Assembly (NCBI RefSeq): GCF_009650215.1
Contig: NZ_CP045851.1
Location: 682,001 to 746,000 of the forward strand
Direction of reading: 5' to 3'
Source of the DNA: Actinomarinicola tropica
GTDB taxonomy: Bacteria; Actinomycetota; Acidimicrobiia; Acidimicrobiales; SKKL01
DNA: 64,000 bases
The notes beneath the pieces are model-generated. The model saw only the letters and a program-made list of their open reading frames with translations. It did not search any database and was not told the origin of the DNA. A program made the translations under genes and the position numbers. This document shows positions 44,623 to 53,934 of the stretch, one piece after another; positions within the stretch are counted from its first letter, which is position 1; each line of letters opens with the position of its first letter.

Positions 44623-45495
44623 TCAGGTGTCGACCCAGCGCAGCTTGCTGCGGTTCAGCACCCAACGGATCGCGGTGATGCGACCGCCGTGCACCTCGAT
44701 CGTGCCGGCCAGGTGCGTGCCCGTCGGGGTGCGCACCACGAACCCCGGTTCGCCGTTCAGCCGGGCCCGTTCGATCGTGCCGGCGCCGAGCGCGGCGGGG
44801 CCCACGCGCCGGAGGAAGCGGGCGATGCGCTCCAGGCCCACGATGGGGTGGCGAGCCGCGCGCACGTCGGCGCCGCCGTCGCTGACGAGCACCGCGTCGG
44901 GCGCCAGCAGCTCGAGCAGGCCGTCGACGTCCCCGCCGCGTGCGGCGCGGAGGAAGCGGTCGAGGAGCACCTCGTGCTCCTCGGGGTCGGCCCGGACGCC
45001 TCCCTGCCCGTGGTTCGCGGCGAGGCTCCGTCGGGCCCGCGAGACGAGCTGTCGACAGGCCGCCTCGGAGCGGTCGAGCGTCGTGGTCAGCTCGCGGTAG
45101 CCCCAGCCGAACACGTCGTGCAGCACGAAGGCGGCGCGCTCGGCCGGCGACAGCGAGTCGAGCACGACGAGCATCGCGAACGAGACCGAGGCGGCGAGCT
45201 CCGCAGCGCGATCCGGGTCGCGGAGCGGATCGTCGACCACGGGCTCCGGGAGCCACGGGCCGATGTAGGTCTCCCGGGCGACCCGGGCCGACCGGAGGTG
45301 GTCGAGGGCGAGGCGGGTGGTGATCGTGGTGACGAGGGCCTCGGCATTGCGCGCCGGCTCCCTCGTCGTGGCGCGCAGGAACCGCACGAGGGCGTCCTGC
45401 GCGAGGTCCTCGGCGTCGGTCCGGCTGCCGAGCATCCGGTACGCGACGCCGACCGCCACCGCCCGGAGGCGCGCCTCGTCCACCTCGACGTTCAT
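44623..45495 (-). CDS. ECF41-family sigma factor (SigJ-like) with SnoaL-type C-terminal domain
   Basis: This 290-residue protein has sigma region 2 (VAYRMLGSRTDAEDLAQDALVRF), a linker with the ECF41 signature GPWLPEPV, sigma region 4 (LSPAERAAFVLHDVFGWGYRELTTTLDRSEAACRQLVSRARR) and a fused SnoaL-like domain. The C-terminal domain carries SDGGADVRA and NRSKL, equivalents of the DGGG and NPDKL motifs. ECF41 sigmas lack an anti-sigma factor and are controlled by this domain. Its ATG overlaps the stop of the AhpD-like gene, and an ECF41-type promoter lies upstream of that gene, so the operon is probably autoregulated. Confidence 0.92.
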   Translation of the reverse strand: MNVEVDEARLRAVAVGVAYRMLGSRTDAEDLAQDALVRFLRATTREPARNAEALVTTITTRLALDHLRSARVARETYIGPWLPEPVVDDPLRDPDRAAELAASVSFAMLVVLDSLSPAERAAFVLHDVFGWGYRELTTTLDRSEAACRQLVSRARRSLAANHGQGGVRADPEEHEVLLDRFLRAARGGDVDGLLELLAPDAVLVSDGGADVRAARHPIVGLERIARFLRRVGPAALGAGTIERARLNGEPGFVVRTPTGTHLAGTIEVHGGRITAIRWVLNRSKLRWVDT

Positions 45496-45941
45496 GCCGC
45501 GGCCAGTCCCGGGGGTTGGGCGTGGGTGGGGACCGCGACCCGGTTCCAGACGTTGATGGTCGCGATGGCGAGGAGCAGCCAGGCGGTGCCCTCCTCCCCG
45601 TGGGCGTCGACCGCCGCCGCCCAGACGTCGTCGTCCACGCCGTGCTCGCCGAGGCGGGTGACGGCGTCGGTCAGCGCCAGAGCGGCGCGCTCGGCCGGGG
45701 TGAAGAAGGGCGACTCCCGCCAGGTGGTGACGGCGAGCACCCGGCGCACGTCCTCGCCGCCGTCGAGCAGGTCGGTGCCGTGCATGTCGACGCAGTAGGC
45801 GCAGCCGTTGATGATCGAGGCCCGGACCTTCACGAGCTCCATCAGACGGTGATCGATGTGCGCCCGCACCTCGGTCTCGAGCGCGTGGACGGCGCGCACG
45901 CCCGCGGGAGCGATCTCGTGCAACGTCATGCGGGGGGCCAT
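45492..45941 (-). CDS. Carboxymuconolactone decarboxylase/AhpD-family protein
   Basis: This 149-residue protein has the AhpD redox motif NGCAYCVDMH (Cys47, Cys50, His54) preceded by the conserved Glu35 in LMELVKVRAS. It probably acts as a peroxidase-linked disulfide reductase rather than a true decarboxylase. AhpD/CMD genes are typical neighbours and targets of ECF41 sigma factors. The ATG has an AGGAGGT site upstream. It overlaps the sigma gene by 4 bp. Confidence 0.9.
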   Translation of the reverse strand: MAPRMTLHEIAPAGVRAVHALETEVRAHIDHRLMELVKVRASIINGCAYCVDMHGTDLLDGGEDVRRVLAVTTWRESPFFTPAERAALALTDAVTRLGEHGVDDDVWAAAVDAHGEEGTAWLLLAIATINVWNRVAVPTHAQPPGLAAA

Positions 45942-45989: not shown

Positions 45990-46015
45990 GACGGGTGGGG
46001 TGCGGATCTGTGACG
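45990..46015 (-). promoter_or_regulatory. ECF41-type promoter for the AhpD-sigma operon
   Basis: On the minus strand CGTCACA (46015-46009) is followed by 15 bp and CGTC (45993-45990). This matches the published ECF41 motif (TGTCACA at -35, CGTC at -10) at 10 of 11 positions with correct spacing. A leader of about 40 bp with an AGGAGGT site follows. Confidence 0.75.
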
Positions 46016-51177: not shown

Positions 51178-52092
51178 TCAGCGGCTCGGTGTCGACGCGT
51201 TCCACGCGCTCAGCTTCTCCGGGTTGACGACCACCCACAGGTTGCGGATGCGCGCGCCCTCGATCCCGACGGCGAGCACCACCACCGTCTCGCCGGCGAT
51301 GCGGCCGGCGAGGCCCGGACGCCCGTTGACGGTGGTCTCGACCAGCTCGAGGCCGAGCTCGTCCCGCTTGCTCGCCAGGTTCGCGAGGTAGCGAGCCAGG
51401 CGCGGGCCACCGGTGATCGGGCGGCGCGCCGCGTTGACCAGCCCGCCCCCGTCGGCCACGACCGTGGCGTCGGGGTCGAGCAGGTCGACGAGGGCGGCGA
51501 CGTCCTGGGCCTCCCACGCCCGGCGGAACGCGTCGACGATCGCCGTGTCCTTCGCCGACGGTGCGCCGGTACGCCCCGAGCGCTCGACGCGGCGCCGCGC
51601 GGACGTCGCCAGCTGGCGGCACGCCTCGGCCGACCGGCCGACGACCGTGGCGATGTCGGCGAAGGGGTAGCGGAAGACGTCGTGGAGTATGAACGCCACC
51701 CGCTCGGCCGGCGTCATCGCCTCGAGCACGACGAGCAGGGCCATGTTGACCGACTCGTCGAGCGTCACGCGCTCTGCCAGGTCGAACCCCAGTGGCGGCA
51801 GGGGCTCGGGGATCCACTCACCGACGTAGCGCTCACGCCGCGCCCGGGCGGACTTCAGCTGGTCGAGGCAGATGCGGCTGGCGACGGTCGTCAACCAGGC
51901 CACCGGCGACTCGATCGCCCGACGCTGCTCCTCGGACAGGGCGTACCACCGGGCGTAGGTCTCCTGGACGGCGTCCTCGGCCTCGGTCAGCGAGCCGAGG
52001 AGGCGATAGCCGACGTTCAGCAGGTGCCGCCGCTCGCGCGCCACGGCACCGTCGTCCTCGGGCTCGCGGGGTCCGTCGTCGGTGTCGGCCAT
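51178..52092 (-). CDS. ECF41-family sigma factor with SnoaL-type C-terminal domain (second copy)
   Basis: This 304-residue protein has sigma region 2 (VGYRLLGSLTEAEDAVQETYARW), the linker GEWIPEPL, region 4 (MTPAERVAFILHDVFRYPFADIATVVGRSAEACRQLATSARR) and a C-terminal domain with ADGGGLVNA and VNPEKLSAW, the classic ECF41 DGGG and NPDKL-type motifs. ATG at 52092 is fixed by AGGAGG at 52099-52104, 6 bp upstream; the earlier ATG at 52110 includes that site. It is divergent from the DoxX gene, with mirrored ECF-type promoters between them. Confidence 0.93.
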   Translation of the reverse strand: MADTDDGPREPEDDGAVARERRHLLNVGYRLLGSLTEAEDAVQETYARWYALSEEQRRAIESPVAWLTTVASRICLDQLKSARARRERYVGEWIPEPLPPLGFDLAERVTLDESVNMALLVVLEAMTPAERVAFILHDVFRYPFADIATVVGRSAEACRQLATSARRRVERSGRTGAPSAKDTAIVDAFRRAWEAQDVAALVDLLDPDATVVADGGGLVNAARRPITGGPRLARYLANLASKRDELGLELVETTVNGRPGLAGRIAGETVVVLAVGIEGARIRNLWVVVNPEKLSAWNASTPSR

Positions 52093-52118
52093 GGGATCCC
52101 TCCTTGCCATGCATCTTC

Positions 52119-52145
52119 GACGAGTGAGGGGCCGCGGACGTGAGG
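52119..52145 (-). promoter_or_regulatory. ECF-type promoter for the second sigma gene
   Basis: On the minus strand CCTCACG (52145-52139), 16 bp, CGTC (52122-52119). The -10 equals the ECF41 consensus; the -35 is a variant of TGTCACA. A short leader with AGGAGG follows. Confidence 0.6.
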
Positions 52146-52156
52146 TGTCGGCCCGA

Positions 52157-52183
52157 CCTCACGATCTCCCGTGGCGGCTCGTC
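52157..52183 (+). promoter_or_regulatory. Mirror-image ECF-type promoter for the DoxX gene
   Basis: On the plus strand CCTCACG (52157-52163), 16 bp, CGTC (52180-52183). It has the same -35, spacer length and -10 as the oppositely oriented promoter of the sigma gene, only 11 bp away. Shared control by one sigma factor is the simplest reading. Confidence 0.6.
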
Positions 52184-52222: not shown

Positions 52223-52612
52223 ATGACCCTCAACGCTCTGCTCTGGATCATCGCCGGGTTCTTCGGCGTCGCCTTCACGTTTGCCGGGACCACCCTGGTC
52301 CTCCTGCCGAAGGAGCGCTACCGCCGCATCCACGAGAGCCAGCACTGGGTGGACGACTTCACGCCCGGCCAGGTGAAGGGGATCGGCGTGATCAAGGTGC
52401 TCGGTGGCCTCGGGCTGCTGCTCCCCGCCGTGGGCGACGTGGCCCCCGGTCTGGTCCCGGTGGCAGCGTGCGGCCTCGCCCTGTTCATGGCCGGCGCGGG
52501 TGCCACCCGCCTCCGCCGGGGCGAGGTCGTCTCGCTCGTCGGCGACGTCGTCTTCCTCGGCCTGTTCGTGCTCCTGGCGTGGGGCCGCTTCGATCTCGAG
52601 CCGTTCGTCTGA
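52223..52612 (+). CDS. DoxX-like small membrane protein
   Basis: This 129-residue protein has four predicted membrane helices. The pattern HWVDDFTPGQVKGIGVIKVLGGLGLLLPAV resembles the DoxX/DUF4267-like family, some of whose members affect membrane redox balance. ATG at 52223 is chosen because the longer frame begins before the predicted promoter. It is divergent from the ECF41 sigma gene and a probable target of it. Confidence 0.8.
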   Translation: MTLNALLWIIAGFFGVAFTFAGTTLVLLPKERYRRIHESQHWVDDFTPGQVKGIGVIKVLGGLGLLLPAVGDVAPGLVPVAACGLALFMAGAGATRLRRGEVVSLVGDVVFLGLFVLLAWGRFDLEPFV

Positions 52613-52614
52613 GC

Positions 52615-53934
52615 TCAGGCGCGGCGTTCCGGCTGACCGCTGCTGCGCTTGTCGGAGTACATCGCGGCGTCAGCCCGGGCGATCAGGTCGTCGAGGGCGT
52701 CCTCGTCCGATCCCCCGATGCTCACACCGACCGCCGCGGAGATGCCCGGCCAGCGCTCGCCCACCGTGTCCAGGGCCCGACGGATCCGCTCGGTCAGCTC
52801 GCCGGCGTCCTCGCGGGTGGCGGGGACCACGACGACGAACTCGTCGCCACCGAGCCGCGCGACGAGGTCGTCGGCCCGGACCGCGTGGCGCAGGGCATCG
52901 CCGGTCGCCCGCAGGACGTCGTCGCCCGTGCCGTGTCCCAGCGCGTCGTTCACGGCCTTGAACCCGTTGAGGTCGACGAACACCACCGCGACCGGCTCCC
53001 GGGGGAGGGGGTCGTCCCAGGTGGTGGCCTCGCGGAGGAGGCCTCGACGGTTGAGCAGTCCGGTCAGCGCGTCGCGCGTGGCGTGGTGGTGGGACTGCTC
53101 CTCCTCCCCGCAGCGGTGCGCGGTCGAGGCGAGGACCGACCCGAGGACACGGACGTGGTCGCTGTTGGCGTCCTCCCACCGTGGGAACCCGTCCGGGAAG
53201 TGCAGCCGCACGACGCCGGACCCGCCGTTGGCCGAGTCGTACCAGACCTCGGCGACCTTCTCTCCGCCGTCGCCGACGTCGCTGCGGACGCACGGCTGGT
53301 CCCGCAGGTCGTCGATGCCGGCGACGAGGCGCGTCGTCCCCACGGTGGCATCGTCGTCGGCGACCCACGCGAGCGCCACGGCAGCCGCGGGTCCGCCCGC
53401 GCGGTCGTGGGCCACCGTCACCAGCTCGATCCGGTCGGCGCCGACGATCGACGCCACCTGCTCGAGGCCGGCCGGGACCAGCTCGTGGAGCTCGTACCAC
53501 CGGACGCCGGCGCAGATCTCCGAGACGCGGGCGACGGCTGCGCCGAGCTCCCGGCGGCGGAGCTCCAGTGCGACGTCGTCCTCCTCACCCCGACCGCACA
53601 GGACGAGCCAGTCGCCGTCGGGTCGGGGGACAGTCGTCGCGGTGACCCGCAGGCGCACGAGCCGGGCGTCGTCCCGCCGCATCCGGATCACCGTCGCCTG
53701 GTGGAACCCGGGCTTGGAGGACGCCTCGGCCAGGGCGCCCGTGGCCTGGACGACGTCGTCGGGGTGGACGTAGTCGAGGAGCGGCCGGCCGAGGGCGCGG
53801 TCGAGCTCGGGGCCGACCTTGGCGGTGGCGCCGCCCAGCCAGGCGAGGCGCCACTCGGGGTCGAGGACGGCGAGGACATCGGGCGCGTGCGCGACGGCGA
53901 AGGCGGCCAGGTCGGGGTGGAGATCCTGCACCAC
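52615..53934 (-). CDS. Diguanylate cyclase with PAS and GAF-like sensor region
   Basis: This soluble 439-residue protein has an N-terminal PAS domain (PDVLAVLDPEWRLAWLGGATAKVG), a GAF-like middle (about 130-270) and a C-terminal GGDEF domain. The active site is ARLGGDEFVVVV, and the inhibitory RxxD site (RADD) is 5 residues before it. It should make cyclic di-GMP. It converges on the DoxX gene with a 2-bp gap. The GTG at 53934 is the first start of a complete PAS domain. Confidence 0.88.
   Translation of the reverse strand: MVQDLHPDLAAFAVAHAPDVLAVLDPEWRLAWLGGATAKVGPELDRALGRPLLDYVHPDDVVQATGALAEASSKPGFHQATVIRMRRDDARLVRLRVTATTVPRPDGDWLVLCGRGEEDDVALELRRRELGAAVARVSEICAGVRWYELHELVPAGLEQVASIVGADRIELVTVAHDRAGGPAAAVALAWVADDDATVGTTRLVAGIDDLRDQPCVRSDVGDGGEKVAEVWYDSANGGSGVVRLHFPDGFPRWEDANSDHVRVLGSVLASTAHRCGEEEQSHHHATRDALTGLLNRRGLLREATTWDDPLPREPVAVVFVDLNGFKAVNDALGHGTGDDVLRATGDALRHAVRADDLVARLGGDEFVVVVPATREDAGELTERIRRALDTVGERWPGISAAVGVSIGGSDEDALDDLIARADAAMYSDKRSSGQPERRA

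Follow-up and report, generated by a model that had tools for sequence, protein, structure and literature searches.

The region between the gene for a SigJ/ECF41-type sigma factor and a divergent DoxX-like gene carries the motif CCTCACG-N16-CGTC on both strands within 65 bp (52119-52183; 52157-52183 on the plus strand and 52145-52119 on the minus strand) of the window, by which we mean the whole stretch of 64,000 nucleotides that was analysed. This arrangement raises the question of whether a single sigma factor reads both copies as promoters, and of what the departure of their -35 element from that of known ECF41 targets signifies. The preliminary description, in which an identical motif occurs once per strand in 65 bp, proved exact, coordinates included. 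The predicted promoter toward the sigma gene (52119-52145, minus strand) consists of the -35 element CCTCACG at 52145-52139, a spacer of 16 bp and the -10 element CGTC at 52122-52119, and that toward the DoxX gene (52157-52183, plus strand) of CCTCACG at 52157-52163, a spacer of 16 bp and CGTC at 52180-52183; both are kept in relatives. The two -35 boxes stand 11 bp apart (52146-52156), the most frequent distance among relatives, and together they make a perfect inverted repeat, CGTGAGGT / ACCTCACG, with 8-nt arms 9 nt apart (52139-52163). With spacers of 14-18 tried, no further CCTCACG/CGTC match was found in the window outside 52119-52183.

The sigma gene (51178-52092, minus strand) most likely starts at the ATG at 52092, which is preceded by a Shine-Dalgarno-like AAGGAGGG (52098-52105, minus strand; by sequence reading), and not at the upstream ATG at 52110 of the longest ORF. 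Its predicted mRNA leader of ~20 nt is close in length to the leaders of two ECF41 targets, mapped at 22/23 nt (PMC3426412). The divergent gene (52223-52612, plus strand) encodes a DoxX_2 family membrane protein (PF13564), most likely starts at the ATG at 52223, and lies tail to tail with a PAS-GGDEF diguanylate cyclase gene (52615-53934, minus strand). On the other side, a gamma-glutamyltranspeptidase gene (PF01019; 49558-51144, minus strand) starts ~33 bp past the sigma stop codon on the same strand; it may be co-transcribed with the sigma gene and hence be among the targets of the sigma factor. The 304-aa sigma protein can be aligned with SigJ end to end and has sigma regions 2 and 4 followed by a long SnoaL-like C-terminal extension, the architecture of ECF41. 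Sigma70_r2 and Sigma70_r4_2 score above their Pfam cut-offs and SnoaL_2 below (24.5 bits against 27); among NCBIfam models SigJ passes (299 against a cut-off of 271) and TIGR02957 falls below (288 against 323). The linker and C-terminal domain of ECF41 proteins bear the signature motifs W-PEP, DGGG and an NPDKL-like sequence, which read WIPEP, DGGG and NPEKL in the window sigma and are also frequent in both sets of relatives described below.

The first set comprises 80 loci fetched by the window sigma protein alone (the best 80 of 573, actinobacterial by their titles). When CGTC had to match exactly at a spacer length of 15-17, NNTCACN was found in 53 of these best 80 of 573 on the strand of the sigma gene and in 48 on the other strand; CCTCACA-N15-17-CGTC accounts for 42 and 38 of them, respectively, and 27 of the 80 have no exact sigma-strand site. 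When up to two mismatches per promoter are allowed and the window is added to the best 80 of 573, the mirror pair is present at 61 of the 81 loci; among the 20 loci without it, 10 have the divergent-side promoter only, 9 have only or mainly that of the sigma side, and 1 has neither. The spacers are themselves conserved in relatives, as CCTCACAgTTCGGnGCGCTGTCTCGTC on the sigma side and CCTCACATTCCGgGGGGCTGCGTCGTC on the divergent side, and the spacers and gap of the window fit this consensus poorly by eye. A Ser164 relative with CCTCACA-N16-CGTC also occurs in a genome of the window's own order (L040); beside the window genome that sample comprised 297 genomes, of which this one alone gave a match at E 1e-70.

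The genes on the divergent side are diverse. Among 78 divergent ORFs scanned (two of the best 80 loci were left out), DoxX_2 was matched by 9, CMD by 9, FMN_red by 10, and each SnoaL-type or DUF4440 family, taken singly, by 6 to 13; a cluster of 16 resembles a small membrane protein by eye, and two of its members, scanned singly, matched no Pfam family. The relaxed pair is present throughout the DoxX cluster (8 of 8 loci) and the main SnoaL cluster (12 of 12), and at most FMN_red (8 of 9) and CMD-like loci (8 of 9), but at 7 of 16 loci of the membrane-like cluster. Six loci with a small uncharacterized divergent membrane-like protein (L044, L050, L064, L067, L073 and L082) have CCTCACA on the divergent side only and none before the sigma gene. 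Using ORFs from a simple composition-based caller, some of which are therefore mis-called, we found the mirror pair at 50 of the 62 loci whose divergent gene belongs to a recurring family and at 2 of the 9 that lack a credible divergent gene (Fisher p 0.00095), the latter being loci where the upstream gene is co-directional and nothing else in the set is homologous to the opposite ORF; 9 loci belong to neither class, and the pair is present in 8 of them. The pair thus tracks the presence of a divergent gene, as expected of promoters, whereas a fixed operator need not do so. DoxX is one among several partners of this sigma clade, and the identities of the partner genes suggest a redox or electrophile response.

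The spacing of the pair was compared in 54 loci, namely the 40 pairs that show no more than one deviation, 13 pairs from the class-wide scan described below, and the window (two deviations). The gap is 11 bp in 29 loci, 9-14 in 40, -1 to 1 in 8 and 6 in 2, and gaps of 24, 41, 42 and 51 occur in one locus each. The peaks at 11 and 0-1 are one helical turn apart, and both are found with DoxX (L076 has a gap of 1); gap classes changed at least 21 times on a tree whose inner branches are mostly weak. Gaps outside 9-14 lie nearer the phase of 11 than random ones (P 0.0032, for related loci and with the phase set from the mode), and in 17 representatives periods from 10 to 13 fit about equally. Helical phasing of the pair is therefore suggestive only, and two holoenzymes may bind co-operatively. 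The sequence of the 11-bp gap, approximately CGACGCGCCGA with a near-palindromic core, is conserved in 28 relatives (L042 to L117, e.g. L059 and L086) with a mean identity of 0.66 versus 0.35 when shuffled, and the window's own gap fits it poorly. This conservation goes beyond bare promoter needs and, with the perfect 8-nt inverted repeat, would suit an operator CGTGAGGT-N9-ACCTCACG for a dimeric repressor or activator, the resemblance to a -35 element being secondary. Such an operator is nevertheless very unlikely, given that CGTC is kept at a spacer of 16 on both outer flanks, that gaps range from -1 to 51, that loci with no credible divergent gene usually have one half site and lack its mirror, and that no regulator gene besides the sigma gene was seen beside the window's element.

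The -35 element of these promoters goes together with a residue of the sigma factor. The second set of relatives, which lie outside the clade, consists of 34 ECF41-like sigmas, drawn from five earlier loci and from the matches to the second ECF41-like sigma of the window. Within 1500 bp upstream, on either strand, [TC]GTCAC-N15-17-[CT]GT[CT] was found in 26 of these 34, some of the sites being due to chance because position was not filtered, and CCTCAC(A/G) in the same format was found in 0 of 34. Residue 164, in the sigma4.2 recognition helix (codon at 51601-51603, minus strand, placed by arithmetic), is Ser in 93, Ala in 1 and Thr in 1 of 95 clade members, and Arg in 34 of 34 other ECF41-like sigmas; L040 was assigned to the clade by its promoter before residue 164 was read. 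In 20 further loci the residue is Arg in 14, of which 12 have [TC]GTCAC sites and 0 have CCTCAC, and Ser in 6, of which two have CCTCACG, two have CGTCACA and one has no site; the sixth, L185, is the most distant Ser164 sigma, and its sole site is TGTCACC, 1.15 kb away. Since Ser164 sigmas also use CGTCACA, the relation between residue 164 and the -35 element is a preference. The split between Ser and Arg corresponds to one change on FastTree trees of 129 and 149 rows computed with the trait column left out, and no second, independent Arg-to-Ser event was found outside the clade among the 20 further loci. As a single event, the split is a correlation that cannot by itself tell residue 164 apart from the other residues peculiar to the clade.

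Structural comparison offers a possible basis for this correlation. When a profile of eight of these sigmas is aligned to E. coli sigmaE (1or7), positions 22-162 pair with 47-187 at an offset of 25; the match is weak (E 0.78), and in it residue 164 corresponds to profile position 154 and chain residue 179. This is residue 176 of sigmaE, a protein of 191 aa, if the 194-residue chain carries a 3-residue tag; the same alignment column holds Arg in both SigJ and the SigE chain. According to the part of PMC6713349 that describes the sigmaE4 complex, R176 and R173 bind G-35, R176 contacts C-36, and R171 binds G'-31. Placing the last C of TCAC at -31, the register that we infer, puts both changed bases at -36 and -35, with C-31 and Arg159 (aligned with R171) unchanged. 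The use of CCTCAC(A/G) in place of TGTCACA is probably due to Ser in place of Arg at 164.

The association of the pair with this sigma clade was also seen in a scan that made no use of the sigma protein. The pattern GACG-N17-GTGAGG-N0-30-CCTCAC-N17-CGTC (gap 0-30 bp) occurs at one place in the window genome and at none in the other 395 of the 396 genomes scanned as a phylum sample. Within an actinobacterial class (that of G320), 13 of 394 genomes have it, at a single place per genome, some genomes being common to both samples; the backwards control gave 0 in each row listed. In 13 of 13 fetched places, a SigJ-like gene whose product is 56-64% identical to the window sigma adjoins the pair. This finding bears on whether the promoters are read by another sigma factor, either another ECF41-like sigma or an unrelated ECF. 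The window genome holds three ECF41-like sigmas and three weaker matches, CGTCACA sites occur in both sets of relatives, and the dependence of the pair on the adjacent sigma is presumed from comparison, all of which would allow such a reading; in 13 of 13 places of that scan, however, the pair lies beside this clade, and the two remaining ECF41-like sigmas both have Arg at the 164 position and [TC]GTCACA sites (for the L002 sigma TGTCACA-N16-CGTC, ~1.35 kb upstream). We regard recognition by another sigma as highly improbable. Chance matches, or a hairpin or terminator in GC-rich DNA, are hardly credible despite the frequency of single matches, as the pair occurs in none of the 395 other phylum-sample genomes, elsewhere adjoins this sigma, and is conserved at orthologous places both among the relatives and in the 13-genome scan, and a terminator or hairpin was rejected upon RNA folding (z -1.34, with 22 of 200 shuffles folding equally well).

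Single copies of the motif are a different matter. At least two single-motif matches occurred in 45 of 100 shuffled windows, and the 3.7-Mb window genome contains 40 CCTCACG-N15-17-CGTC sites and 25 CCTCACN-N16-CGTC sites, two of the latter being the pair itself. Single copies are thus unremarkable, and the mirror pair is significant and not due to chance. Many random matches had been named beforehand as an outcome that would count against the promoters; with 25 to 40 matches in the genome this is borne out for single motifs and fails for the pair. The proposal that the single motif could reveal the regulon is unsupported, because single matches are common and coding frames hold the majority of the 25. 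The 17 sites of CCTCACC type (C at the seventh -35 base) were rejected, 16 lying in long coding-like frames and L132 in a short one only. Among the other six CCTCAC(A/G) sites, one (L033) and probably two more (L141 and L136) are inside coding frames, and L130 and L139 face the 3' end of an opposing ORF by eye. The remaining one, L017 (CCTCACG-N16-CGTC at genome positions 1217278-1217304, plus strand), is the only other such site in the genome placed like a promoter, ~80-100 bp before an ORF that by eye resembles an M13-type peptidase, and is at best a weak candidate for a regulon member.

Because the pair tracks the sigma clade and mostly accords with the direction in which the neighboring gene runs, one sigma most likely reads both promoters, which would provide autoregulation and one divergent target. 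The comparison in this way supports the earlier suggestion that one sigma serves both genes, the dependence of both promoters on this sigma being presumed, and the suggestion of a distinct ECF41 specificity is supported by the [TC]GTCAC sites of the relatives outside the clade, the split at residue 164 and the further loci; that the -35 element marks an ECF41 sub-specificity distinct from TGTCACA appears well supported. We consider it highly probable overall that the adjacent SigJ-like ECF41 sigma reads both promoters, combining feedback with a DoxX target; the -35 variant probably arises via Ser164. In the proposed mechanism, the SnoaL-like C-terminal domain would permit activation of the sigma factor, as the ECF41 literature suggests, and the active holoenzyme would transcribe the sigma gene leftwards, giving positive feedback if this sigma is indeed the one used, and the DoxX gene rightwards; Ser164 would lose the contact favoring G at -35, leading to CCTCAC(A/G). 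A bolder version, in which a single Arg-to-Ser change rewired the clade from TGTCAC to CCTCAC, created two circuits without cross-talk in one cell and was joined by phased co-operative binding of two polymerase complexes, is conceivable and rather unlikely. The outcome is an ECF41 sub-specificity for which a candidate residue can be named, and -35 recognition by group IV sigma factors becomes testable by one substitution and two promoters. Both kinds of promoter coexist in one genome, so a test of orthogonality is a natural one.

The promoter of M. tuberculosis SigJ is of the GTCACA type. This protein (5xe7) is the best match to the window sigma among solved structures and shares its domain order, with Arg where the window sigma has Ser164. 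The second ECF41-like sigma of the window (44629-45941, together with CMD) belongs to the same family and the same genome, with 40-41% identity, and differs in having Arg at the 164 position and in the arrangement of its locus, where the sigma gene lies behind a CMD (AhpD-like) gene (45941-45492) in a row on one strand and a canonical-type site, CGTCACA-N15-CGTC (45990-46015, minus strand), precedes both.

The published ECF41 target promoter is TGTCACA-N16-CGTC (Wecke et al. 2012, PMC3426412). The ECF41 systems of that paper and the window's sigma locus have in common a fused C-terminal domain with no anti-sigma gene seen, the -10 element CGTC, a spacer of 16, and a promoter before both the sigma gene and its neighbor, the motif having been found on both sides of divergent ECF41 loci in 36 and 41 of 55. 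The window's locus differs in its -35 element CCTCAC(A/G) (CCTCACG in the window itself and CCTCACA in relatives), in Ser for Arg in the recognition helix, and in the preferred 11-bp back-to-back spacing; because the -35 element differs, the window sigma is a variant of the group that is non-canonical in its promoter. The neighbor of ECF41 genes is a carboxymuconolactone decarboxylase, oxidoreductase or epimerase in ~70% of cases, and DoxX is unmentioned in the accessible text (PMC3426412); the partner in the window is DoxX_2 instead, and relatives have CMD, FMN_red, SnoaL-type, DoxX and other partners. Among orphan ECF41 genes the TGTCACA motif was reported in 38 of 126 (PMC3426412), and some of those without it may use the CCTCAC variant. 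Our search, which did not extend to the 2021 re-classification or the 2017 SigJ paper, found no literature joining ECF41 and DoxX, and among papers naming CCTCACA or CCTCAC with sigma or ECF none was about ECF41, as judged by title and the start of the abstract. The 2021 re-classification reportedly divides ECF41 into numbered subgroups with listed motifs. Subject to that scheme, what is known here is the autoregulated divergent ECF41 locus, and what is new is the variant of its promoter and of the recognition helix.
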